From Dawidia soli (GTDB lineage: Bacteria; Bacteroidota; Bacteroidia; Cytophagales; Cyclobacteriaceae), in NCBI RefSeq assembly GCF_018598185.1, contig NZ_JAHESC010000031.1, positions 1 to 64,000 of the forward strand: a stretch of DNA of 64,000 nucleotides, read 5' to 3'. This document shows, piece after piece, positions 23,976-53,019 of the stretch. Each line of letters begins with the position of its first letter. Positions within the stretch are counted from its first letter, which is position 1. The position numbers and the translations under genes are program-made. Below the pieces are notes generated by a model. That model saw only the letters and a program-made list of their open reading frames with translations. It did no database searches and had not been told where the DNA came from.

Positions 23976-25070
23976 TCAGGGCTTATCAGCCTCCGCCTCA
24001 TTCGGATTCAACGCCTCTTCACTCCCTGCTTTCATCATCAACCGCTGCGTCGGCAACGCAAAGTCTACGCCCAACGCCTGCAAACGCTCAAAGATCGCCA
24101 GGTTGATCTGCTGCTGAATGTCCATGTACTTATTAAAATCAGAACTGAGCACAAAATATACGATCTCAAAGTTCAGGCTCCAGTCTTTATAGGTTGCAAA
24201 GTGCGCACGATCAAACCGTGTGTCGGCCTGCGCTTCTACAATAGCCTTTAAGATGCCGGGGATCTCCTTTACTTTCTCCAACGTCGTGGCGTACGATATG
24301 TTGATATTAAACACAACCCGTCTCAGGTTTTGTGTTTTGAAATTATGAATGCGCGCGTTCATGAGGTTGGAGTTGCCGATCACCAGCTGCTCACCGCTCA
24401 AACTGCGAATGCGCGTAGTCTTCAAGCCTATATATTCTACCGAACCCATTTTGTCGTCTACGACAATAAAGTCGCCTACCTCAAACGGCCGATCGAAAAA
24501 GATCACAAAATAGTTGAACAGGTCACCCAGGATATTCTGAGCGGCCAGCGCGATGGCTATACCGCCGATGCCGAGCCCGGTGATGATCGTCGTCACGTTG
24601 TAGCCCAGGTTGTCGATCAGAAAGACCGCGCCCAGGATCCAGACGACAATATTAATGATCACCATCAAGCCACCCAGCTGCTTGATCTTCTCGTCACCTT
24701 TCTCCTGCCGGCGAATATGGTTTTGAAGCACCAGCAGAATGATGGAGGATATTAGCCGTAACACAAAGAACGTAATAACTACGGCCGTGGCAATGCGCAG
24801 TACATTATCGGCCTTCGGCGTCAGCTCCAGGTAACTGATGCCCGAGTAGATGATGAAATAATACAACGCCGGCAGCGCAAAGCGTTCCACACTTCGTATG
24901 ATAAAGTCATCGTTGGTCGTTCTGGTAGCGTTCGCCCACTTCTCCAGCCTGCGGAGCAACGTGCCTTTAAAGATGCGTACAGCCAGCGTGCCGACTATAA
25001 TAATCGCCAGGGCAATGAGATAATCCTGTACGGTGTTGTGCCAGTACTCGCGTGCCAGTAACTCGTTCAT
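23976..25070 (-). CDS. MscS-family mechanosensitive ion channel (second copy)
   Basis: 364 residues with membrane segments at about 14-35, 65-85, 95-118 and 132-180, then the MscS core (GIGGIAIALAAQNILGDLFNYFVIFFDRPFEVGDFIVVDDKMGSVEYIGLKTTRI), which forms the pore helix and the beta domain, and an alpha/beta C-terminal domain. It differs in length and N-terminus from the channel at 4292-5407, so the two are distant paralogues. It is probably a single-gene unit upstream of the ABC permease on the same strand, with 179 bp between them. Confidence 0.93.
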   Translation of the reverse strand: MNELLAREYWHNTVQDYLIALAIIIVGTLAVRIFKGTLLRRLEKWANATRTTNDDFIIRSVERFALPALYYFIIYSGISYLELTPKADNVLRIATAVVITFFVLRLISSIILLVLQNHIRRQEKGDEKIKQLGGLMVIINIVVWILGAVFLIDNLGYNVTTIITGLGIGGIAIALAAQNILGDLFNYFVIFFDRPFEVGDFIVVDDKMGSVEYIGLKTTRIRSLSGEQLVIGNSNLMNARIHNFKTQNLRRVVFNINISYATTLEKVKEIPGILKAIVEAQADTRFDRAHFATYKDWSLNFEIVYFVLSSDFNKYMDIQQQINLAIFERLQALGVDFALPTQRLMMKAGSEEALNPNEAEADKP

Positions 25071-25249: not shown

Positions 25250-25645
25250 TCAGCCTGTAATGGCCAATAACTGTTTGATCATCGTGATATACTCGTTATA
25301 ATCGTAAGGCTTTGACATAAATGTAGCCGCGCCCAGTGCCTTCGACTCGCTGGCAAGCTCGTGACCATCGTGCGTAGAGTATATCACGACGGGAATGTGT
25401 TTATAGTCGTCGCTCGCCTTGATCTCCTTTAATACTTCGGTACCCTTCTTACGCGGCATGTTCTGATCCAACAGGATCAACGCCGGGTATGCATCGCGTC
25501 GCTGTTTTGTTGCCAGGAACGGCATTACCTCACTGCCCTCTTCGAGCATCACAAGCTGACATTCTTTCTCTACTTCCTGGAATATTTCTGCAAAGACGGC
25601 GCGATCATACTGATCGTCCTCGCATAGCAATACGTACTTCGGCAT
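25250..25645 (-). CDS. Single-domain response regulator of the phytochrome operon
   Basis: 131 residues, a receiver domain only: acidic pocket at Glu9-Asp10-Asp11 (LLCEDDQYD), phospho-acceptor Asp60 (LILLDQNMP), Ser/Thr near 95 (VIYSTHDG) and Lys near 113 (FMSKPYD). It has no DNA-binding or enzyme domain, as in Rcp1-like regulators that follow phytochrome kinases. It starts 3 bp after the stop of the CheB-CheR-kinase gene, so it is very likely the partner of that kinase. Its downstream target is not in the window. Confidence 0.93.
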   Translation of the reverse strand: MPKYVLLCEDDQYDRAVFAEIFQEVEKECQLVMLEEGSEVMPFLATKQRRDAYPALILLDQNMPRKKGTEVLKEIKASDDYKHIPVVIYSTHDGHELASESKALGAATFMSKPYDYNEYITMIKQLLAITG

Positions 25646-25648
25646 ACA

Positions 25649-28600
25649 TTACTGTTTAATCGGAATAACAAGTTCAAATAATGCGCCTTGTCCCTCGGCA
25701 CCGGAGCCGCGTACCAGCCCCTGATGTATATCGATCACCTTTTTTACGATGGCCAGGCCAATGCCCGAACCCTCGTATTTATCCTTGGGATTGATACGAT
25801 GGAACAATACGAATATTTTTTCCCTGAATTCCTCATTAAATCCTATGCCATTGTCGCGGAAGGTGCATAGACAGAAAGGACCATTGGGGTCGGCAGCGGC
25901 CGTAAACGATTTTTCGGACAGGCGGGTAGCCGTAATAGTAATATGTGGCGGCACGCCGTCGCGTGCAAACTTGAGAGAGTTGCTGATGAGGTTTTGGAAT
26001 ACCTGGCGGATGAGATTCGGTATAACTTCCATGTCCGGGAACCGGCCGATGGTAATAACGGCTTTCTTTTCTTTGATCAACAGCTCGTAGTCGTCCTGTA
26101 TATCTTTCAACATGGCGTTGATATCCGTGAGACGGAAGTCGCCGCGGTCGGGGGAGATCTTGGAGAAGTTCAGGATATTGGTGATCATCGCCCGCATCCG
26201 CTCAGACGATGAAGCAATGGCATCCAGGTAAAAGTGCGCCTTCTCCGGCAGTTGATCGCGGAACTGGCTGCTGACCATGCGCGAGAACATGACCATTTTG
26301 CGGATCGGCTCCTGCAGGTCGTGCGACGCCACCGAGGCAAACTGCTTGAGGTCGTTGTTGCTCAGGCGAAGGGCCTCGTTTACCTCTTCCAGCTCGCGGG
26401 TGCGGCTGGCCACTTTTTCTTCCAGCAGTTTATTCAGGCTCTTCTGCTCGTGAATGTCCACGGAGGTGATAACCCAGTTGACAATTGCACCGGCACGGTT
26501 CTTCCGCGGATTGGCGCGCAACAGGTTCCAGCGGTATTCACCGCCCTGTACCAACAGCCGCAGCTCGAGCGTAAACTCTTCGGCCCGGTTCAATGACTGA
26601 CGCCAGGTCTCTAAAAAGACATCGATGTGCTGCGGGTGTATAACCGTACGCCAGCCCTTCGCCAGGATCTCGTCTGTGGACAAGCCGGTATATTGCTCGA
26701 ACTGACGATTGACAAAGGTAATATTGCCCATCTCGTCTGTCATCCAGACAATAAGCGGCATGGACTCAGCCAGGAACTTGCGTTCGGCTTGCGAGTTGGC
26801 AATCGCTTGCTCGGCTTGTTTGAGCTGTGTGATATCGAGCATCGAGCCGATCATCCGGCAAGGTGAGCCGAGCTCGTCTTTCATGATCGTGGCCTGATCG
26901 AGAATGTCGAGATACTCACCATCGGCCCGTTGAAACCGGTACTCTGTGGACCAACGCTGGCTATTCTGATTGATCGCTCTATACAGCGTCTGCTGTACGC
27001 GGTCTTTGTCGTCGGGGTGGATCTTATCGGCCCAGGTAGTGCGGGTGAATTTTTCGCGTACCATGTCATACCCGAAGACGTTGTAAAACGTGTCGCTCCA
27101 CCAGGCTTCGTTCTGCACAAAGTCCCATTCCCAAATGGCATCGATGGTCGTGGTGGCAATGGTCTTAAAGCGTTGTTCGCTTTTCGAAAGCTCCAGGGTA
27201 CGCTCGCGCACCTTATTCTCGAGGTCGGTGTTGAGCTCCTTCAAGCTGTCTTTGGCGCGGACCAACTCGGCATAACTCTTGCGCAGCTTGTCTTCGGCCA
27301 CCTTCTTCTGCGTAATGTCCGCGAACGTCATCACCAGGCCGTCTTCCATGCGAATGGCGTTTACCTGATACCAGCGCCGTGTATGGTTCAGGTAAAAGTC
27401 CTGCTGCATGGGTACATTGTGTTCTACCACGTACTGCATTTCCTGGAACAGCTCGTCGCTGACCAACTGGGGCAGGTCTTTGCGCACCGAGCTTCCCTTC
27501 AGATCTTCCGTGGTACCGAGCAGCGACCCGGCCATATAGTTCGAGGTTTCGACGACAAAGTCGAGTATATTCTGCTCCACGCTGCGTACACACTTCAGCG
27601 CCAGGATGGCGCCCGGGCTGACATTAAATACCGCGCCGATAAAGGTGCTCAGATGCTTGACCAGCGACACGTCGACAAACGATATAACAACGCCCGCCTG
27701 TTTCTCTTCGTTAGAAAGGTACGGCATCATGCGCATGAGCAGGTTGCGACCGTTTGCCAGCAGCAACTCGCGCTCTAACGTCTGGTTGGATTCCTGCACC
27801 GCTTGCAGATCCTGCGCCAGGTTGTCATATCGGAAATTTGTCGAGAAGTGTGTAATAGGCCGTCCGATGTCGCTTTCGATGAGGTTGATCATCTTTGCCG
27901 AGGCCGGGTTAAACTTGCGTATGCTCAGACCTTCGTCCAGGAAGATCTGTCCGAAGTCGCTGCTGCGGAAATAGTTGTTCAGGTCGTCATTCAGCTCGGA
28001 CAATTCCTGGATACGGAGCTGATACTCCGTATTGAGGGTGTGGAGCTCTTCGTTTACAGATTGGAGCTCTTCGTTGCTGCTTTGCAACTCTTCGTTTGCG
28101 GTCAGCAGTTCTTCGTTCGAGCTTTGCAGCTCCTCGTTGATCGTCTCGGTATTCTCGACGGTCACCTGCAGATTATACCGCACTTTCTGCAGGTCCACCT
28201 CCAGCGACCGGATATAGTCGCTGGTAAATTTATCGGTCGAGTCGAGGTCGGGGATCACGGGCGGCAGGGCGCCGGGTGGCGTCTGATGCTGACGGAGTAC
28301 GACCAGTGTCAATCGGCTGGGTACATCTACCTTGGCGGGCACGATGAGGACATCCAGTAAATACTCCATTTCGCCGCGTTGAAATTTCAGGTCGCGCAGC
28401 AACACCCGCTGATTGGTCTTCCATACCTTGCGCACCTCCAGGCTCAACATCGGGGCGAGGTTGAGCGGCAACATTTCCAGCAGGTTAAACACCAGCTCGC
28501 GTGGCGGCAGGGACAGAACACCGTTGTAATCGCCCACGGTCTTGACGATCTCAAACTCGTCGTTGATATAACAGCCCACGTAGCCGAACTCGCGACTGAT

Positions 28601-30130
28601 CTCCTGCTGAAAGAATTTTGAATAGCTGTCTGCGCTCCGGCCGACGGCGGCATTCTCTGCATCCGGGTAGCTGCTCTTGCGTTGCGATATATCCATCAGG
28701 TGCCGGCTGCTGAGCGGAGCTTCGTATTCCTTGCGGTAGATCTTGGCCTTTGCGTCGACGTCTGCCAGGTATTTGTCGATCGTTATCGGCGACTCGCTCG
28801 AGCCAAGGAACAAATAACTCTGCCGCTTCAGCGCATATAGCAGAATGGGGAACAGCTTTTCCTGCAGCGACCGCGTCATGTAGATCAGCATGTTGCGGCA
28901 ACTCACCAGGTCGTTCTTGACAAACGGCGCTTCGTTGGTAATGTCGTGCTTAACGAAAATGATCTGCTTGCGGATATGCGGCAGGATCTGATAGCTATTA
29001 TTGTTCTTGGTGAAATATTTTTCGAGCAGGTCTTGGCTGACGTCCGCTTCGATGGAAGACGGGTATATCCCTTTGTTGGCAATGTTGATGCTTCGGTCGT
29101 CTATGTCCGTGGCGAAGATCTTTACCAGCAGTTCTTTCTTCTGCTTTTCTTGGGCCTCGTTAATGAGTATGGCCAGGGAGAGCGCTTCTTCGCCCGTGCT
29201 ACACGCCACTACCCACACCTTCAATATATCGCCGTTCTCTTTCGACGCCACCAGTGGATTGATCACTTCGCGGGCCAGTACCTGAAAGGCCTCTTTGTCG
29301 CGGAAGAACTTCGTGACACCGATCAGGAAGTCGTTGCTCAACGCCCGGCATTCTTGTGGCGACTGGCGCAGCACCTCCAGGTAGCCCTCAAGCGTACCGT
29401 GGTTTCCCTTGGAGATGCGATTATAGATACGCCGCAGCAATGTGGGCGTTTTATAGTAATGAAAGTTAAAGCCCACCTCCTCGTGAATAAGCTGGAAGAT
29501 CTCGTCCAGTGCTTTATTCTCCAACAGGTTGTTGGTGTTCAGATACGACAGGCTGGTCTGCATGTGGAACAGGATCTCCTCCGGCATCTGCGACGGTGAC
29601 AATATTACCCGTGCATGGCCCGCCTGGATTGCGCTGATGGGCATGCCATCAAACTGCGCGGTTTTCGGGTCCTGCACCAACACCAGACCACCGGCGTCTT
29701 TAATGGCTTCAATGCCGCGCGTGCCATCGGAGCCCGTGCCCGAGAGGATCACACCGATGCTTTTATCTTTTCGCTCGCGGGCCAGCGATTGCAGGAATAC
29801 GTCAATAGCATTGTTGGGCACCTTCAGGGGTACCTCTTTCTTTTCGACCGTGAGGCTATCACCGTGCATCGTCAATGCCCGGTTGCTGGGAATGATGTAT
29901 ACACAGTTCGGCTCCACCCGCATGCCGTCTACGGCTTCATATACCGCCATCTTCGTATGGCGGGTAATGATCTCGGCCAGCAGGCTTTTGTGATCGGGCG
30001 ACAGGTGCTGGATCACCACGAAAGAACAATCGGGCGACGCCGGCATGTTGTCGAAGAACTCGTTGATCGCTTCGAGTCCTCCGGCCGAGGCACCTATCCC
30101 TACTATAAAGTGATTCGTTTCGCGGGCCAT
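25649..30130 (-). CDS. CheB-CheR-PAS-histidine kinase hybrid sensor (1493 aa)
   Basis: A multidomain cytoplasmic signalling protein. Residues 1-190: CheB methylesterase with catalytic residues in GIGASAGG (Ser15), IQHLSPDH and GTGSDGTRG. About 205-470: CheR methyltransferase (LLRRIYNRISKGNHG; VVACSTGEEALSLAI). About 640-735: a Glu-rich coiled coil with repeated SSNEEL/ANEELQ units. Then at least three PAS-like segments (about 740-850, 1010-1125, 1135-1250). C-terminal kinase: HisKA (FASVASHDLQEPIRKMV) and HATPase (RQVFQNLISNSLKFA, FRDNGIGF, GSGIGLAIVKK). No membrane helix and no receiver domain. It is 15 bp after the phytochrome gene and 3 bp before a response regulator, which makes it the probable output of the light sensor. 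Whether the Che domains are active on any chemoreceptor is unknown. Confidence 0.93.
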   Translation of the reverse strand: MARETNHFIVGIGASAGGLEAINEFFDNMPASPDCSFVVIQHLSPDHKSLLAEIITRHTKMAVYEAVDGMRVEPNCVYIIPSNRALTMHGDSLTVEKKEVPLKVPNNAIDVFLQSLARERKDKSIGVILSGTGSDGTRGIEAIKDAGGLVLVQDPKTAQFDGMPISAIQAGHARVILSPSQMPEEILFHMQTSLSYLNTNNLLENKALDEIFQLIHEEVGFNFHYYKTPTLLRRIYNRISKGNHGTLEGYLEVLRQSPQECRALSNDFLIGVTKFFRDKEAFQVLAREVINPLVASKENGDILKVWVVACSTGEEALSLAILINEAQEKQKKELLVKIFATDIDDRSINIANKGIYPSSIEADVSQDLLEKYFTKNNNSYQILPHIRKQIIFVKHDITNEAPFVKNDLVSCRNMLIYMTRSLQEKLFPILLYALKRQSYLFLGSSESPITIDKYLADVDAKAKIYRKEYEAPLSSRHLMDISQRKSSYPDAENAAVGRSADSYSKFFQQEISREFGYVGCYINDEFEIVKTVGDYNGVLSLPPRELVFNLLEMLPLNLAPMLSLEVRKVWKTNQRVLLRDLKFQRGEMEYLLDVLIVPAKVDVPSRLTLVVLRQHQTPPGALPPVIPDLDSTDKFTSDYIRSLEVDLQKVRYNLQVTVENTETINEELQSSNEELLTANEELQSSNEELQSVNEELHTLNTEYQLRIQELSELNDDLNNYFRSSDFGQIFLDEGLSIRKFNPASAKMINLIESDIGRPITHFSTNFRYDNLAQDLQAVQESNQTLERELLLANGRNLLMRMMPYLSNEEKQAGVVISFVDVSLVKHLSTFIGAVFNVSPGAILALKCVRSVEQNILDFVVETSNYMAGSLLGTTEDLKGSSVRKDLPQLVSDELFQEMQYVVEHNVPMQQDFYLNHTRRWYQVNAIRMEDGLVMTFADITQKKVAEDKLRKSYAELVRAKDSLKELNTDLENKVRERTLELSKSEQRFKTIATTTIDAIWEWDFVQNEAWWSDTFYNVFGYDMVREKFTRTTWADKIHPDDKDRVQQTLYRAINQNSQRWSTEYRFQRADGEYLDILDQATIMKDELGSPCRMIGSMLDITQLKQAEQAIANSQAERKFLAESMPLIVWMTDEMGNITFVNRQFEQYTGLSTDEILAKGWRTVIHPQHIDVFLETWRQSLNRAEEFTLELRLLVQGGEYRWNLLRANPRKNRAGAIVNWVITSVDIHEQKSLNKLLEEKVASRTRELEEVNEALRLSNNDLKQFASVASHDLQEPIRKMVMFSRMVSSQFRDQLPEKAHFYLDAIASSSERMRAMITNILNFSKISPDRGDFRLTDINAMLKDIQDDYELLIKEKKAVITIGRFPDMEVIPNLIRQVFQNLISNSLKFARDGVPPHITITATRLSEKSFTAAADPNGPFCLCTFRDNGIGFNEEFREKIFVLFHRINPKDKYEGSGIGLAIVKKVIDIHQGLVRGSGAEGQGALFELVIPIKQ

Positions 30131-30145
30131 GGAAGCGTCTATACG

Positions 30146-31651
30146 TTATTTGGTCCGGGTCGTGCTGAATTCATACAGGAAGTTGCGCAGTACCTCTGCC
30201 AACAGCAGCTCTTCCCGGCGCCACCCTGCCGAGCGCCCGGTGACGGTCTGTTGCCAGATCTTAAAGGAATTGCGCGGATGATACGACTTACCGTCGCTTT
30301 CAAACTGTATACGTTCGTCGGGGTTGCCACCCCATTGCAGCGTCTCGATCACCTCGGGTCGGAACAACAGCAGGAAGTCGTGCCGGCGCGGGTCGATAAG
30401 CAAGCACAGCAGGCCGCTGCAGGTGCTCCGGTAGTGTTCCGCCACATCGTGTACCGACGAGAGCGAGGTAGTATGGTAGATCCCTTTAATGTCCTGTACG
30501 CTCAGCCACAACGCCAGCTCCTGCAGGTCTTCCTCCGACGGTGTTTTACCCCAGGTACGCGTCAGTCCGTTGCGGATAATGGCCAGTCCGTCGGCCTCAA
30601 AGAGCTCGGCAATGCGGCCGGTCTTTACCATGGTGTCGTCGGGGTTGCCCGACGCATAGATCTCCTTCACCAGCGTGGTATACTTTTCCTTCAGGCTCTG
30701 GTCGAACTGGTAGTTATTCTTGTTCACCAGCAGCGACAGCTTGGCCGAGATCGCCGCCGAAAGCATTTCCAGCACAGAACACATCTGGAACGACAGCTGC
30801 CGCGGGGTGCGGTGATGGCACGCCATAAGACCCCACAGCTCGTTGTCTTTCATGATGCGGATAGACATGGAAGCACTCACGCCCATATTCCGAAGATATT
30901 CCACGTGCACCGTGGCGACGCTGCGCAGGTTGCAATCAAACAAGTCGATGAAAGCACCGGTCAGGGAATTGATGACGGGATATAGCCGCACGGGTTGCGC
31001 ATCGCGGTCGGGTATATAGCGATAGGGATTTCTCTTATAAAGTTCCCGCGCCTGGCGCGGGATGTCAGACGCCGGAAAGGTAATGCCCAGGTATACCTCC
31101 ATGCCCGGCTCGAGCACCTCGGCCACCACCGTGCCGTTCCAGTCTTCGTCGAACTGGTATACCATGATCTTGTCAAAGCCGGAAACTTTCTTGATCTCGG
31201 CCACCACGATCTGCCACAGGCCGGTGATGGAGTCGGCAGACTCGATCCGGCTCATGGCGTATTTCAACTCATGGTATACATTGGCAAAACTGGACTGCTC
31301 GCCGGTCTGAAAGCCGGGTATTTCGATCTCGGCAATGAGATATGTTTCTTTGGCGTGCCAAAGCACGAAATGCTCGCCGCCGCGAATGTTCCATTGATCG
31401 GGCAGCGGGTTGGCAAATGCCGCGGTAAGTTTCTGTTGAATCTTTTCCACAGTCCCCTGCGATATGTACCGGGTCAGCGGGGCATCGATCATCTCCCCGA
31501 CCGGCTCGTCAAAAACGAGATGACTGTTCTCGCTTGCCTGGATGACGTTAAAGCTCTTGCGATCAATGACCAGCAAGACGCCGTAAGGCTGGATATGGTT
31601 GGTTAGGTGAATGGGTAAGCTTCCACAAAGCTCGGAGTCATAATTCTTCAT
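30146..31651 (-). CDS. Bacteriophytochrome photosensory core (PAS-GAF-PHY) without output domain
   Basis: 501 residues from ATG 31651 (a GTG at 31657 is possible). Residues 1-120: PAS with Cys9 in LCGSLPIHLTNHIQPYG, the position that binds biliverdin in bacterial phytochromes. 130-310: GAF with FPASDIP (192-198, Asp196), the conserved His249 region (VHVEYLRNMGV) and CHH (278-280). About 320-501: PHY with the tongue signature PRNSF (near 455). All chromophore-site residues are intact, so a red/far-red photoreceptor is expected. Unlike typical bacteriophytochromes it ends after PHY; the kinase is encoded by the next gene, 15 bp away. No heme oxygenase gene to make biliverdin is in the window. 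Confidence 0.93.
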   Translation of the reverse strand: MKNYDSELCGSLPIHLTNHIQPYGVLLVIDRKSFNVIQASENSHLVFDEPVGEMIDAPLTRYISQGTVEKIQQKLTAAFANPLPDQWNIRGGEHFVLWHAKETYLIAEIEIPGFQTGEQSSFANVYHELKYAMSRIESADSITGLWQIVVAEIKKVSGFDKIMVYQFDEDWNGTVVAEVLEPGMEVYLGITFPASDIPRQARELYKRNPYRYIPDRDAQPVRLYPVINSLTGAFIDLFDCNLRSVATVHVEYLRNMGVSASMSIRIMKDNELWGLMACHHRTPRQLSFQMCSVLEMLSAAISAKLSLLVNKNNYQFDQSLKEKYTTLVKEIYASGNPDDTMVKTGRIAELFEADGLAIIRNGLTRTWGKTPSEEDLQELALWLSVQDIKGIYHTTSLSSVHDVAEHYRSTCSGLLCLLIDPRRHDFLLLFRPEVIETLQWGGNPDERIQFESDGKSYHPRNSFKIWQQTVTGRSAGWRREELLLAEVLRNFLYEFSTTRTK

Positions 31652-31682
31652 GTACACAGTAAACTAATATGTCCAGGAAAGT

Positions 31683-41422: not shown

Positions 41423-41841
41423 GACAATTCAGACGTCCAAATAACCCAAATAAAAACTATGGAGGGGCGAACGCCCTGTTAAGGATTTTTTAAACTTTCG
41501 GTGAGGCGTATCAATCGTTTGCTGCTGTCTTGCATTTGTATCCCAGGGCGGAGTTCCGATAGCTTTCATCGGGATGTGCCTGCATCGATCATTCCTGTTA
41601 CGGAAGAGTCTCCGACTCCCGGAACATCCCACAAATTATTTCAACCACACACGTCAACATCCACAATCACATGTTCACACACCATACCTTATTTCTCACA
41701 CCCCTTACTTCTAAGGTATTATATACTTCCAAAAATATATATCTGCTACTAATCGATTAAAAGGTAACCTATATCGCGCTCACCCTGTTTCTTCCCGTCT
41801 TATTCGGTATATTGTTTAGTAACCATAAACCGATACATGTT
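41423..41841. other. 419-bp divergent regulatory gap
   Basis: Lies between the sigma factor and the T9SS metalloprotease, transcribed away from each other. The right half becomes A/T-rich with CA-rich and TATATA-like tracts (41640-41760), as expected of a promoter region. I see no gene, tRNA or strong hairpin in it. Confidence 0.5.
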
Positions 41842-44796
41842 ATGAAGAAGAAACTACTATTCATCGCTGTCTTTTCGTTGACAGCAACGTTGGGCATGGC
41901 CCAAATGAAAACGTACTGGACCAGGTCCTCAGAGCCTCCGTTGGAAAAGCCATTAGCTGCGCGACGCGCGACGCCATCGGCACACCAGGTGTTTGCCCTC
42001 GACTTCTTCGGCTTTCAACAAGAGGTGAACAAGGCGCCCATGCGGGGTCTGTCCGCCGGGCGGGCTGACCTCATCGTCAGCTTCCCTGATCCGCAAGGCA
42101 CATTGAAACGTTATCGCGTGCTGGAAGCCTCGGTGCTGCACCCCGACTTAGCGGCAAAGTATCCCGGCATCAAATCGTATGCGGGCCAGGGCATCGACGA
42201 GCCCTCGGCGACCATCCGGTTCAGTGTGTCCAACCAAACGGGCTTTCACGGCATGGTGCTGTCGAGCGAGCAGGACCACATGTATTACATCGATCCTTAT
42301 ACCGAGGACCGATCGCTGTACACCGTATACCGCCGTGCCGATGTGGCCGACCGGGAGACGAGCTTTACGTGTTATACCGACGAAACCGATGCCGCGGGCC
42401 GCACGGCAACGCCGTACAGCACCAACGATCGCAAGCTGCGCAAGTACCGCCTCGCCTTGTCGTGTACAGCCGAGTATGGCAACCTGTTTGCCGGCACGGG
42501 TACCGACGCACAAAAGAAAGCCAACATTCTCGCGCAGATGAATGTGAGCATGACACGTGTGAATGGCATCTATGAGCGTGACCTGTCCATCACGATGGAG
42601 ATCGTTCCGAACAACGACCTCATCATTTACCACGGCAGTACGACCGCCGACCCCTGGTCAAACGAGTGGAATACCAAAACACAACAAGTGATCGACGCTG
42701 CCATCGGCAACGCCAACTACGACATCGGCCACAATTTCAACACTACCGGCGGCGGCAACGCGGGGTGTATTGGTTGCGTGTGTACCACGGGCAGCAAGGG
42801 CCGCGGTTACACGGGCAGCTCCAACCCCACAGGCGACGCATTTGACATCGACTACGTCGCACACGAGATGGGTCACCAGTTTGGCGGGTATCATACGCAA
42901 AGCAACGCTTCCTGCCGAAGCGGCAGCGGCACGACCGAAGTAGAGCCTGGCAGCGGCAGTACCATTATGGGCTACGCGGGTATATGTCCTGCCAACGTAC
43001 AGAATAATAGCGACGCCTATTTCCACTACGTAAACATCCGCGACATATCGGCCAACGTACAGTCGGGTAACAGCTCGGGTTGCGCGCAGGTCGTCAACCT
43101 GACCAACAACCCGCCGACGGCCAACGCCGGTTCCGACTACACCATTCCACGCTCGACGGCGTTCGTACTCCGCGGGCAGGGCACCGATCCGGACGGCGAT
43201 GCGCTTACCTATACCTGGGAGCAAAACGACGCCGGCAACCCGAACTCCAACGCCGCGCCGACCTCCACACGCACGGTGGGCCCGATGTTCCGCTCGTGGG
43301 AGGGAACGACATCTCCCGACCGTTATTTCCCGCGTATCGCCGATGTCGTGGCAAACAACCTTACACCTACCTGGGAAGTTGTGCCGTCCGTGGCCCGCAC
43401 CCTCAACTTTGCGTTGACCGTACGCGACAACAAAGCGGGCGGCGGCCAGACAGCAGAAGATCTCATGCGCGTGACGGTCAACGGCACGGCCGGGCCTTTT
43501 GTCGTATCGTTCCCCTCTGCCGCTACCACGTGGGCTGCCGGCAGCACACAAACGGTAACCTGGAACGTGGCGAGCACGAACGTAGCGCCTGTGAATTGCG
43601 CAAACGTAAACATTCTGCTTTCCACCGATGGCGGCTTTACCTATCCCACAACGCTTGTCGCCGGCACACCCAACGACGGCTCGCAGGCTATTACCGTTCC
43701 TGCCCTGGCGACCACCACGGCGCGCATTAAAGTCGAGGCAGCGGACAATATCTTTTATGATATCTCCAACACCAATTTTACCATCACAACAGGACCGGTG
43801 GTCTGTAATGCAACGACCCCCACGGGCCTGGCGGCATCCGGCGTTACTGCCTCGGGTGCAACCCTCAGCTGGAACGCCGTAACCAATGCTACTTACGATG
43901 TACAATATCGCGCCACCGGCGCCTCCGCCTGGACAACGGTATCGACCGGTGCCACGACGATCACGCTAAGTGCCCTGGCAGCGCAGACGACCTACGAGGC
44001 ACAGGTGCGCAGCGTCTGCAGCTCGGCCACCTCGGCCTACAGCGCCTCGGTAAACTTTACCACGCTCGGCAGCGGTCCTACCTATTGCGCGTCGCGTGGC
44101 AACAGCGTGGCGGACGAATATATCGGCCGTGTACAGTTGGGCGCGATCAATAACCTGAGCGGTGCGAACGGCGGCTATGGCAATTTTACCAACCTGTCGG
44201 CAACCCTCAGCGCCGGTTCGGCTTATACCATTACGGTCACACCTGCCTGGACGGGCTCTACCTACAGCGAAGCGTATGCCGCGTGGATCGACTACAACCG
44301 CGACGGTGACTTTGCCGACAGCGGCGAGCGTATATGGTTCCGTAACGCCACGACGACAACCCCCGTGAGCGGATCGTTTACCGTGCCATCAACGGTTACG
44401 GCGGGCGCGACCCGTTTGCGTGTATCCATGAAATATAACGGTGTGCCGAGTTACTGCGAAACGTTTGCTTATGGCGAGGTGGAGGACTATACGGTCAATA
44501 TCACCGGCGGCAGCGGCCTGGCGAAAACGGATCGTGGCGAGATCGTACTTCCGGAAGAGGCGACCGTATTGGCACACCGCATTTATCCGAACCCGGTAAA
44601 AGATCAGCTGACGCTGGAATTGGGAGAAGGCGTTGTCATTCGTACGTTGCAGATCAACAACCTGGCCGGCGCGGCGATGCCCTACACCCGGCAGGAGGAA
44701 CGATCGGTGGATGTATCGTCGCTGCCCTCGGGTATGTATATACTTTCAGTGTCGACGGATAAGGGACTTATCCGGGAGAAATTTTTGAAGGAGTAG
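41842..44796 (+). CDS. Secreted reprolysin-like zinc metalloprotease with T9SS sorting domain
   Basis: 984 residues from ATG 41842 (MKKKLLFIAVFSLTATLGMAQ signal peptide). A pro-domain (about 25-190) precedes a metzincin protease with HEMGHQFGGYH (341-351; His341, Glu342, His345, His351) and Met-turn STIMGYAGIC. Further domains: a PKD/Ig-like region (about 425-560), a fibronectin type III domain (about 655-745, SGATLSWNAVTNATYDVQY), a GEVED domain (about 810-890, WIDYNRDGDFADSGE to YGEVEDYTVNITG) and a C-terminal Por/T9SS sorting domain (about 910-984, HRIYPNPVKDQL to GLIREKFLKE). It is exported across both membranes by type IX secretion and anchored or released. Single gene, ends at a terminator. 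Confidence 0.95.
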   Translation: MKKKLLFIAVFSLTATLGMAQMKTYWTRSSEPPLEKPLAARRATPSAHQVFALDFFGFQQEVNKAPMRGLSAGRADLIVSFPDPQGTLKRYRVLEASVLHPDLAAKYPGIKSYAGQGIDEPSATIRFSVSNQTGFHGMVLSSEQDHMYYIDPYTEDRSLYTVYRRADVADRETSFTCYTDETDAAGRTATPYSTNDRKLRKYRLALSCTAEYGNLFAGTGTDAQKKANILAQMNVSMTRVNGIYERDLSITMEIVPNNDLIIYHGSTTADPWSNEWNTKTQQVIDAAIGNANYDIGHNFNTTGGGNAGCIGCVCTTGSKGRGYTGSSNPTGDAFDIDYVAHEMGHQFGGYHTQSNASCRSGSGTTEVEPGSGSTIMGYAGICPANVQNNSDAYFHYVNIRDISANVQSGNSSGCAQVVNLTNNPPTANAGSDYTIPRSTAFVLRGQGTDPDGDALTYTWEQNDAGNPNSNAAPTSTRTVGPMFRSWEGTTSPDRYFPRIADVVANNLTPTWEVVPSVARTLNFALTVRDNKAGGGQTAEDLMRVTVNGTAGPFVVSFPSAATTWAAGSTQTVTWNVASTNVAPVNCANVNILLSTDGGFTYPTTLVAGTPNDGSQAITVPALATTTARIKVEAADNIFYDISNTNFTITTGPVVCNATTPTGLAASGVTASGATLSWNAVTNATYDVQYRATGASAWTTVSTGATTITLSALAAQTTYEAQVRSVCSSATSAYSASVNFTTLGSGPTYCASRGNSVADEYIGRVQLGAINNLSGANGGYGNFTNLSATLSAGSAYTITVTPAWTGSTYSEAYAAWIDYNRDGDFADSGERIWFRNATTTTPVSGSFTVPSTVTAGATRLRVSMKYNGVPSYCETFAYGEVEDYTVNITGGSGLAKTDRGEIVLPEEATVLAHRIYPNPVKDQLTLELGEGVVIRTLQINNLAGAAMPYTRQEERSVDVSSLPSGMYILSVSTDKGLIREKFLKE

Positions 44797-46234: not shown

Positions 46235-46315
46235 TCGCTTCCGGCCCGAAGGAGCTGTGTTTGATGGGTGGACGAAGAACTATTTTCCGGTGCAGGGCAT
46301 CTTAGCGAAAAGGCC

Positions 46316-48535
46316 ATGGCCATACCCAAAGCCCTGATATTCCTGCTGCTATTGCCCGTTATGCACAGCCTGCAGGCACAACCCCTCTCCGGCACTATTA
46401 CTGACCACGCCACGAAACAACCGGTTCCGCATGCGCACATTTCGATCCTGGAAACCGGCGAAGGGACAATGAGCGATGAGCGCGGCCGTTATTCCCTGAA
46501 GCTTCTTTCCGCTGCGGCTACGCGGCATGCTACGATATCCTCTATTGGCTACCGGCCGGCGACGATACCCGTTCCCCCGCTGGGCGGAGTGATCGACGTA
46601 GCCCTGCACCCTGACACGGTTTTGCTCCAGCCTGTAGAGATCACCCCCATCGACCCCCGACAGCTTATCCAGCAAGCGCTGGTGCAGCTCCCGCAAAACC
46701 ACGGCGGTTCGCGAACGCTGACATGCTTTTATCGACTGATCGCCCACAAAGCCGATCAATCCATACACATATCCGAGGCGGCTTTCGACCTGCATCAACC
46801 CGCTGATAAAGAAGCTCAGCTCACGGTCCTGAAGGCCCGTGAAGCAGAAGATGAACGAGCGTTTAACGGTGTCGGTATGGCTATTGGCACCAAAGTGAAC
46901 ACGGTAAAAACGCTCGACCTGGCAGCAAATCCTTCTACATTATTTCTCGGTAAGAGCGGCCTGCGCAAACACGACTTTGTCTACGAAGGCGTTACCCACA
47001 TCGGCACGGAAGAAGTGCATGCGATATCGTTTGATCAAAAACCTCTGGTCAAAGACGGATTATACCGCGGCAGGATCTTCTTCAGCACATCGTCTCTTGC
47101 CGTCGTGCAGGTGGAGTACGAGCTCAGTCCGCGCGGACTGCCCTACGTACAGGCCGGCTCTGCTGCCGAGCGTGCCGCGCTGAAGCTCCTGAACATTCAG
47201 ATCGACGTATCCCGTCAGCGAACCGTGATCCGCTACCGGCCTTTTGGCCGCCGCTGGTACCTCGATCACATCGCGCGTGACGAGACCGCGCGTGTCAGCA
47301 GCAAGCGCTATAGCTTTGATGTAACGGTTGATGAACGAAGCGACTTTCTGGTGACACGCATCGATACCACGGCGCAATCCGCATCCCGGCAGGCTTCCGC
47401 AACAGGACGATTCCTGGAGTCGGCGGCCGACACGAGCGCTGCTTTCTGGGAAGGATATAACATTCTGCAGACCACGCTAAACTACGACACGCTGGCCGCA
47501 GCGATCGAGGCACGAAATGGTTATACAGCGCTGAAGGAGCACGTACAAACCATTTTAAGGAAGTCACCCAAACACCCTGCTGCCCGGGTCGACTCTGTGC
47601 TGCGTATATACCACCAAAAGGGCATGTTCCACGGCGTAGCGCTCGTTCAACACCGGGGAGAGATCCTGCTACACCGCGGCTACGGCTACGCCGACAAGGT
47701 CACACGGCGCCTGCATGACACTACTACGGTCTTTCGTATCGGGTCACTGGCGAAGACGTTTACCAGCCGCGTTATTTATGCCCTGCAACAAGACGGCCTT
47801 CTTCAATACCAGGACACGGTGCAGAAGTTCCTGCCCTGGTATCCGCACCGCGGCATCACAATAGAACATCTGCTAACACACGCGTCGGGCCTGCCGAGCT
47901 ATACTTCGCACCCGGCTTTCATCGATTCTATACAGCATGTATATAGCCTCGAGGAAGTCATTCGCCGTTTCGGTTGTGAGGCGCCTCGGTTCGCTCCCGG
48001 CACAAGTTTCTTGTACAGCAACACGGGCTATAGCTTGCTGGCGCTTGTAGCGGAGAAAGCTTCCGGCAGATCCTTTGGGCAATTATTGGCAGAGAACATC
48101 ACGACACCGCTCAGGTTGACCCACACGTCGCTGGACAGTCACGCGCCTTCTCTCGCCAGGGGCTACCTCTATGGCGTCGAAGAACCGGCGTATGCCGTGA
48201 CCAACGTAACGGGTGCCGGCGCCATTACCTCAACGGCGGCTGATCTGCTCCAGTGGGCCAACAGCCAGTCCACGCCCGGGCTGGACGTCCAGTTCGTTCC
48301 GCGAACCTATTACCAGGACTGGGGTGTTTATTATGGTTACGGCTGGATGATCGACCGGTACCAATTTCGCGTGTCAAAGCGCGACAAGGTTTTACTTCAC
48401 CCGGGAACCGACTTCGGTTTTAAGACCATGCTGGCACATCAGCCCGACGGGGGCAATACGGTTATTCTGTTAAACAACACGGGCGAGTTTCCGTTATTCG
48501 ATATCACCGACCTGATCCTGAACGAATTGAATTGA
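46316..48535 (+). CDS. Exported protein: regulatory beta-sandwich domain fused to a beta-lactamase-like serine hydrolase
   Basis: 739 residues from ATG 46316 (signal peptide MAIPKALIFLLLLPVMHSLQ). Residues about 23-110 form a carboxypeptidase-regulatory-like domain (SGTITDHATKQPVPHAHISI; RGRYSL). About 115-350 matches the region that normally follows that domain in stand-alone Bacteroidota surface proteins. About 425-739 is a class C beta-lactamase/penicillin-binding-like hydrolase with Ser477-Leu-Ala-Lys480 (RIGSLAKTF) and Tyr567-Ser-Asn569 (LYSNTGYSLLA), plus IEHLLTHASGLPSY. The third motif, usually HxG or KTG, seems to be LLHPGTDFGF near 700. Such hydrolases are often esterases or D-peptidases rather than antibiotic resistance enzymes. 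The fusion is unusual. Confidence 0.87.
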   Translation: MAIPKALIFLLLLPVMHSLQAQPLSGTITDHATKQPVPHAHISILETGEGTMSDERGRYSLKLLSAAATRHATISSIGYRPATIPVPPLGGVIDVALHPDTVLLQPVEITPIDPRQLIQQALVQLPQNHGGSRTLTCFYRLIAHKADQSIHISEAAFDLHQPADKEAQLTVLKAREAEDERAFNGVGMAIGTKVNTVKTLDLAANPSTLFLGKSGLRKHDFVYEGVTHIGTEEVHAISFDQKPLVKDGLYRGRIFFSTSSLAVVQVEYELSPRGLPYVQAGSAAERAALKLLNIQIDVSRQRTVIRYRPFGRRWYLDHIARDETARVSSKRYSFDVTVDERSDFLVTRIDTTAQSASRQASATGRFLESAADTSAAFWEGYNILQTTLNYDTLAAAIEARNGYTALKEHVQTILRKSPKHPAARVDSVLRIYHQKGMFHGVALVQHRGEILLHRGYGYADKVTRRLHDTTTVFRIGSLAKTFTSRVIYALQQDGLLQYQDTVQKFLPWYPHRGITIEHLLTHASGLPSYTSHPAFIDSIQHVYSLEEVIRRFGCEAPRFAPGTSFLYSNTGYSLLALVAEKASGRSFGQLLAENITTPLRLTHTSLDSHAPSLARGYLYGVEEPAYAVTNVTGAGAITSTAADLLQWANSQSTPGLDVQFVPRTYYQDWGVYYGYGWMIDRYQFRVSKRDKVLLHPGTDFGFKTMLAHQPDGGNTVILLNNTGEFPLFDITDLILNELN

Positions 48536-52941: not shown

Positions 52942-53019
52942 TGGGGTGAAAGACGGGACTCGAACCCGCGACCCCCAGAATCACAATCTGGTGCTCTAAC
53001 CAACTGAGCTACATCCACC
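52942..53019 (-). tRNA. tRNA-His (GTG anticodon)
   Basis: The minus strand folds as a cloverleaf: acceptor strand starting GTGGATG with one T-T mismatch against CTTTCAC, D arm AGCTCAGTTGGTTAGAGC, anticodon stem CCAGA/TCTGG with loop TTGTGAT (anticodon GTG), and T arm containing GGGTTCGAGTCCC. An extra 5' G (53019, position -1) faces C73, the identity element of tRNA-His, and CCA is encoded (52944-52942). A terminator follows. Confidence 0.95.

Follow-up and report, generated by a model that had tools for sequence, protein, structure and literature searches.

The stretch of DNA analysed here (the window) comprises positions 1 to 64,000 of contig NZ_JAHESC010000031.1 of Dawidia soli (assembly GCF_018598185.1). 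Three abutting genes on its minus strand, to which all coordinates of their domains refer, encode a bacteriophytochrome without an output domain, a histidine kinase that also contains CheB methylesterase and CheR methyltransferase domains, and a single-domain receiver, putatively of the Rcp1 type. The phytochrome gene (30146..31651, stop codon included) yields 501 residues from the ATG at 31651; an alternative GTG start at 31657 would add two residues. It is followed after 15 bp by the kinase gene (25649..30130, 1493 residues) and after a further 3 bp by the receiver gene (25250..25645, 131 residues). The gene order, the two spacings and the length of the kinase given in an earlier interpretation of this DNA, made from the letters alone (the sequence-only reading), agree to the base with the coordinates of the open reading frames.

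Pfam assigns PAS_2, GAF and PHY domains to the phytochrome, all over their cut-offs, and no further domain; no NCBIfam family exceeded its cut-off. The PHY match spans residues 324-497 of the 500 residues given to the search, and the chain ends 3 residues later, with no output kinase in the same polypeptide. Solved phytochromes in the PDB match along residues 5-498 with E values down to 2.5e-94. In alignments with solved bacteriophytochromes, Cys9 (codon 31625..31627) falls on their N-terminal Cys, which we take to be the bilin-attachment Cys, and Val248 occupies the GAF position that presumably holds the Cys of Cph1. The motifs PASDIP, CHH and PRNSF begin at residues 193, 278 and 459, and the WGG motif is also present. 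The chromophore motifs listed by the sequence-only reading, Cys9 included, are therefore located at the places it named, and the lack of an output domain agrees with the Pfam result. The phytochrome of Parachryseolinea silvisoli (Cytophagales), a close relative, shares 88% identity, and the genome of the window contains one phytochrome match only. In the 21 split phytochromes collected in the survey described below, 20 of the 23 pocket and tongue positions that were checked are invariant, among them C9, D196, R243, V248, H249, Y252, S261, S263, C278, H279, W440-G441-G442, P459, R460, S462 and F463. The variable positions are H280 (conserved in 20), A194 (in 19, with Gly in 2) and I197 (Ile in 10, Val in 11). 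By these residues the protein is a biliverdin-type PAS-GAF-PHY module that retains the tested pocket and tongue positions and lacks an output.

The kinase is composed of CheB, CheR_N, CheR, PAS_10, PAS_3, PAS_9/PAS_4, HisKA and HATPase_c domains as defined by Pfam, with a coil between the CheR and PAS_10 regions; in NCBIfam, a PAS S-box domain model was the only one over cut-off among the best 25 of 72 matches. The CheB domain (residues 10-186, 29573..30103) carries no receiver domain. Its residues S15, H42 and D135, which we assume to be the catalytic triad, align with solved CheB and are invariant in all 20 kinases that have CheB in frame. In the CheR region (residues 208-448, 28787..29509) the signature residues of FFRD, CSTGEE, TD and CRN are invariant in 21 of 21 kinases, with the exception of T312 (19 of 21). 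The HisKA and HATPase_c core (residues 1261-1492, 25655..26350) contains the phospho-acceptor H1270, which is conserved together with N1380, N1384, D1426, G1428 and G1430 in all 21. As far as the alignments tell, the kinase has an intact HisKA/HATPase core and intact CheB and CheR residues. Two further loci with related proteins were seen. A Mucilaginibacter contig encodes, 1.5 kb after the paired kinase, a second hybrid with a partial CheR, a helix of the kind described below and a kinase, without CheB (L007:17132-19786), which may be truncated. On contig C37 of the window's own genome, a stand-alone CheB of 201 residues lies beside a kinase and six small receivers, of which several resemble Rcp proteins (L149:6149-11933); this is a second CheB locus, of another kind.

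The sequence-only reading had placed photoreceptor and kinase on separate polypeptides that work together. As co-conserved neighbours they were borne out: an output-less phytochrome is directly followed by a CheB-CheR kinase in all 21 distinct Bacteroidota genomes in which it was found, 8 of which were fetched after the pattern had been noticed. The gap between the two genes is -4 to 205 bp in the 20 genomes with an intact CheB frame; at the remaining locus, L203, the distance to the CheR part is 600 bp. The pair spans more than one order, one of the genomes (G702, that of L006) belonging to the same class but not to the same order. Other kinase matches occur in only 5 of the 21 stretches (L006, L007, L008, L198, L201) and at differing places. 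A frameshift or an assembly error as the origin of the split is ruled out, since the output-less form constitutes a clade of 21 members with the same boundary.

These genomes were obtained by several searches. A contig scan with the phytochrome query yielded 25 loci. Ten of these (L002-L011) encode output-less phytochromes, each with a CheB-CheR-PAS kinase as the next gene downstream; 14 (L012-L025) encode phytochromes of 739 to 808 residues, with a kinase match in the same chain in 12 and none in L012 and L013; L026 is a weak match to the query. No CheB or CheR match was found at any of the 14 fused-length loci within flanks that reached 10 kb at most and were shorter at several of them, nor at 28 further fused loci (L028-L057 without L041 and L042) within flanks of about 1.5 kb around the PHY match. 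A sample of 395 genomes of the phylum contained a PHY match in 40, over the cut-off in 38. Three matches over the cut-off lie in short frames of 498-517 residues (G000, G033, G261), and G033 and G261 also carry the phytochrome-kinase pair. In a class sample, again of 395 genomes, 31 matched the profile of the split phytochromes; the split members G702, G261, G000 and G033 scored 733-859 bits and the rest at most 401. Among 98 relatives, the window's genome included, 11 split places scored 578-806 bits, as compared with at most 429 for fused phytochromes. They comprise the window, the genomes of L002 and L004 once more and eight new genomes, all eight with a CheB-CheR kinase downstream, which in L203 has its CheB in a separate, shortened frame. 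Genomes met repeatedly, as judged by contigs of equal length (G702 = L006, G741 = L002, G818 = L004), were counted once. Among the titles and abstract openings listed by searches of the open PMC literature, which mostly excludes subscription papers, no phytochrome paired with a CheB-CheR kinase is described, and the pair is a bacteriophytochrome two-component variant that we have not found described in the literature searched.

A survey for the complete trio had also been suggested. The pair stood the survey. A general role of the lone receiver in the system was rejected, since only the window, L002 and L198, 3 genomes out of 21, have a receiver of the window type directly after the kinase. 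At L005 the receiver, located 44 bp downstream, is a different one, and in G744 (L197), of the same genus, the pair is present without the receiver. The receiver itself matches Response_reg as its only Pfam family, over the cut-off, and no NCBIfam family over cut-off among the best 25 of 61 matches. Its putative phospho-accepting residue is D60. In the PDB its top match is an unspecified receiver (5te9), with Rcp1 second (2e-15), and RphyB (6.2e-15) and RcpA (1.8e-11) are also matched. In the same genome, receivers encoded away from any phytochrome reach scores equal to those of receivers beside one. The fused phytochromes of the set are often followed by receivers.

In a tree of 66 phytochromes, 13 of them split, the split forms occupy one side of a branch with a Shimodaira-Hasegawa-like approximate likelihood ratio (SH-aLRT) support of 100, and they again form one group in a FastTree tree of 81 rows with 21 split members; for the 66-row tree, rows of less than 400 residues and copies with an identical middle stretch had been dropped and long rows cut at 520. 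The fused-length row nearest the split clade in that tree is a Leptospiraceae phytochrome of 764 residues (L012:4853-7147), in which no kinase-query match follows the PHY domain. The phytochrome-linked kinases formed one group among 37 CheB-CheR hybrids (SH-aLRT 99, one label change). With eight more rows, L203 being represented by its CheR part without CheB, the label needs two changes, so that a strictly single group held at 37 rows and failed at 45. Relatives may have lost the phytochrome, or the association may have been gained twice.

The sequence-only reading had made its proposal depend on a heme oxygenase elsewhere in the genome. The gene is present, on another contig (G000:C51:200-742), and scores 45.2 bits against a cut-off of 23. 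The family was found under all 14 genome handles searched whole, which correspond to 13 distinct pair genomes; the remaining 8 of the 21 were seen as 17-kb stretches, 5 of which contain the gene. In 8 of the 21 it lies directly upstream of the phytochrome (L005, L008, L063, L197, L198, L199, L200, L202). In the class sample, heme oxygenase occurs in 29 of 31 phytochrome genomes versus 21 of 364 others (Fisher p 3.5e-28). Heme oxygenase can serve iron uptake too.

Between CheR and PAS_10 (residues 717-821, 27668..27982) the kinase contains NEEL repeats (residues 665-702, 28025..28138) in which Glu-Glu (EE) pairs recur at 666/667, 673/674, 680/681, 687/688 and 694/695. An AlphaFold2 model of residues 456-830, computed with 11 sequences (mean predicted local distance difference test score (pLDDT) 70.2, predicted template modelling score 0.33), shows a single helix of 92 residues over 632-723, with a pLDDT of 90-94 at the repeats, a PAS-like unit of strands and helices before the helix and PAS_10 after it. 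Foldseek with the helix model found PAS proteins at low template modelling scores, 0.19-0.25 to the query, among the best 50 of 1163 matches. No other stretch of 40 residues in the kinase is as well conserved as the EE helix. In 13 aligned kinases its mean column identity is 0.96, with 32 of 40 columns invariant, as compared with 0.79 for CheB, 0.73 for CheR and 0.58 for HATPase, and all ten Glu residues of the pairs are invariant in 21 of 21 kinases. In our judgement, a plain coiled coil would not require five EE pairs in a fixed heptad phase and at the top of the conservation. All 24 background CheB-CheR hybrids, a set of proteins that have both CheB and CheR and exceed 700 residues, also contain EE chains, of 2-7 pairs. 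A protein of 573 residues (L165:4162-5883) with an EE helix and PAS_10, and no match to CheB or CheR, adjoins a CheB-CheR hybrid and might be methylated in trans.

Methyl-accepting chemotaxis proteins (MCPs) are methylated at Glu pairs that lie seven residues apart on a long helix. Methylation of a helix in a sensor kinase has a precedent, since RsbM of Bacillus cereus methylates the signalling helix (S-helix) of the sensor kinase RsbK, a modification needed for repression (PMC4574943). By analogy, the EE helix may be the in-cis substrate of the kinase's own CheR and CheB, a possibility that we take seriously at somewhat less than even chances. None of the three window proteins contains an MCP, CheW or CheA domain according to Pfam, and with PF00015 at E 0.001 no MCP match was found in 11 of the 21 pair genomes, some of which are drafts. 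Absence of MCPs from most pair genomes held in the first genomes (10 of 13) and failed once the other 8 were added, 7 of which have MCPs. Conversely, an action of CheB and CheR on MCPs in every case finds no support in the 11 genomes without a PF00015 match. There another substrate is required for CheB and CheR, for which the EE helix is the nearest candidate. The adaptation idea gains weight because the key residues of CheB and CheR are invariant, the kinase has the EE-heptad helix and 11 of 21 genomes lack an MCP match.

We propose a red/far-red two-component system with sensor and kinase on separate chains and adaptation in cis, a reading that as a whole appears to us slightly favoured. Heme oxygenase, encoded elsewhere in the genome of the window, would supply biliverdin; the photosensor would dock on the kinase, and light would alter autophosphorylation of the kinase in trans. 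The supply of biliverdin by heme oxygenase and the docking and light control in trans are very probable. The phosphate would then be transferred to the putative Rcp1-type receiver where it is present and otherwise to other receivers, which is rather probable. CheR would methylate and CheB demethylate the Glu pairs on the kinase's own EE helix, by which the activity of the kinase would be reset to the prevailing light in an adaptation loop that is complete in itself and independent of MCPs. That this loop constitutes a covalent methyl memory for a phytochrome signal received in trans, and that CheB-CheR fusion kinases are generally an adaptation module outside chemotaxis, is a tentative suggestion on which we would place doubtful odds. 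Phytochromes as a rule signal inside a single polypeptide, so that a naturally split one whose partner is conserved is a clean system in which to study how light controls one protein through another. Should methylation of the helix occur in cis, adaptation of the receptor type exists in sensor kinases outside chemotaxis, and CheB and CheR gain a role in the 11 pair genomes without an MCP match.

Several observations weigh against this proposal. No known docking domain that would join phytochrome and kinase is recognisable. The kinase core varies between clades, with SHDLxEP in the window, L002, L004 and L063 as opposed to SHELKTP in the remaining 9 of 13 kinases aligned, and in the 45-row tree two kinases without a phytochrome may fall inside the phytochrome-linked group. 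The remaining objections concern methylation and lead to the most serious alternative, in which phytochrome and kinase cooperate as proposed, CheB and CheR act in trans on an MCP or another receptor or serve mainly as scaffolds, and the EE helix does no more than relay the PAS signal to the kinase as a rigid rod. The coil contains no match to the strict MCP consensus used here and three to a looser one. EE chains occur without CheB in the same chain in L154 (where CheB lies in a neighbouring frame), L155, L156 (near a contig end) and the second hybrid of L007, some of which may be truncated, and with neither enzyme in one protein (L165, 4162..5883); such occurrence could be explained by structural conservation alone. 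In L203 (genome G771) CheB is broken off (L203:7577-8122) and CheR, the EE helix and the kinase core are retained; the separate CheB frame may be a broken gene or an error of the draft sequence. MCPs are matched in 10 of the 21 pair genomes, including that of the window. Arguing against the action in trans are the 11 genomes without an MCP match, together with the invariance of the checked CheR residues, apart from T312, in all 21 kinases and of the CheB residues in the 20 with the frame open, and the five phased EE pairs, whose conservation exceeds, as judged above, the demands of a coiled coil. This alternative is a real possibility that we hold to be somewhat improbable.

The phytochrome might instead signal elsewhere, to the receiver or to another PAS kinase, and the CheB-CheR kinase might be a co-inherited neighbour with a PAS input of its own. 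The several PAS domains of the kinase would suit such an independent input, CheB-CheR hybrids often occur with no phytochrome in the flanks retrieved (24 were examined), and the missing docking element fits as well. This explanation is unlikely in view of the adjacency in all 21 genomes across more than one order, with short gaps in 20, and the rarity and scattered positions of other kinase matches in these stretches. It is very improbable that the photoreceptor is a relic or binds a bilin or heme without photochemistry; the invariance of nearly all pocket and tongue positions in the 21 split phytochromes and the co-occurrence of heme oxygenase speak against it.

Other genes of the window were noted. 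Downstream of the receiver and in the same direction lies a gene for an MscS-type channel (23976-25070); L002 encodes a similar protein 185 bp past its receiver. A 994-residue reprolysin-like metalloprotease (41812-44796) with fn3, GEVED and a Por secretion tail is probably a type IX secretion substrate. A protein of 755 residues (46268-48535) combines a CarboxypepD_reg domain with a serine hydrolase domain of the beta-lactamase family, and a tRNA-His (gtg) gene is located on the minus strand at 52942-53018.

Canonical bacteriophytochrome systems consist of a fused PAS-GAF-PHY-HisKA protein and an Rcp-type receiver, as in Cph1-Rcp1, a layout also seen in L014-L025. The system described here shares with them the PAS-GAF-PHY module, the N-terminal Cys, an adjoining receiver putatively of the Rcp1 type and the association with heme oxygenase, and differs in that the chain stops after PHY and a separate kinase of 1493 residues carries CheB, CheR and several PAS domains. 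CheB-CheR fusion kinases, presumably KEGG K13924, have the same layout of CheB, CheR, PAS-like unit, EE helix and PAS_10, most of the 24 compared with HisKA; in contrast to the kinase of the pair, no phytochrome lies in the flanks fetched for the examples studied, and at the 26 background loci taken from other genomes (L151-L176) the phytochrome profile gave no match in these flanks. With adaptation of MCPs in chemotaxis the system has in common the CheR and CheB families and Glu pairs with heptad spacing on a long helix; it differs in the absence of MCP, CheW and CheA domains from the three proteins and in the lack of a match to the strict MCP site consensus. A CheB-CheR hybrid has been noted for Rhodospirillum centenum (PMC2890560). 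RsbK-RsbM of B. cereus resembles the proposed mechanism as a case, outside chemotaxis, of a methyltransferase acting on the signalling helix of a sensor histidine kinase. RsbK contains CHASE3, HAMP and GAF and no phytochrome module, and RsbM, a protein of its own, has no methylesterase partner (PMC4574943), whereas here both enzymes reside in the chain of the kinase.

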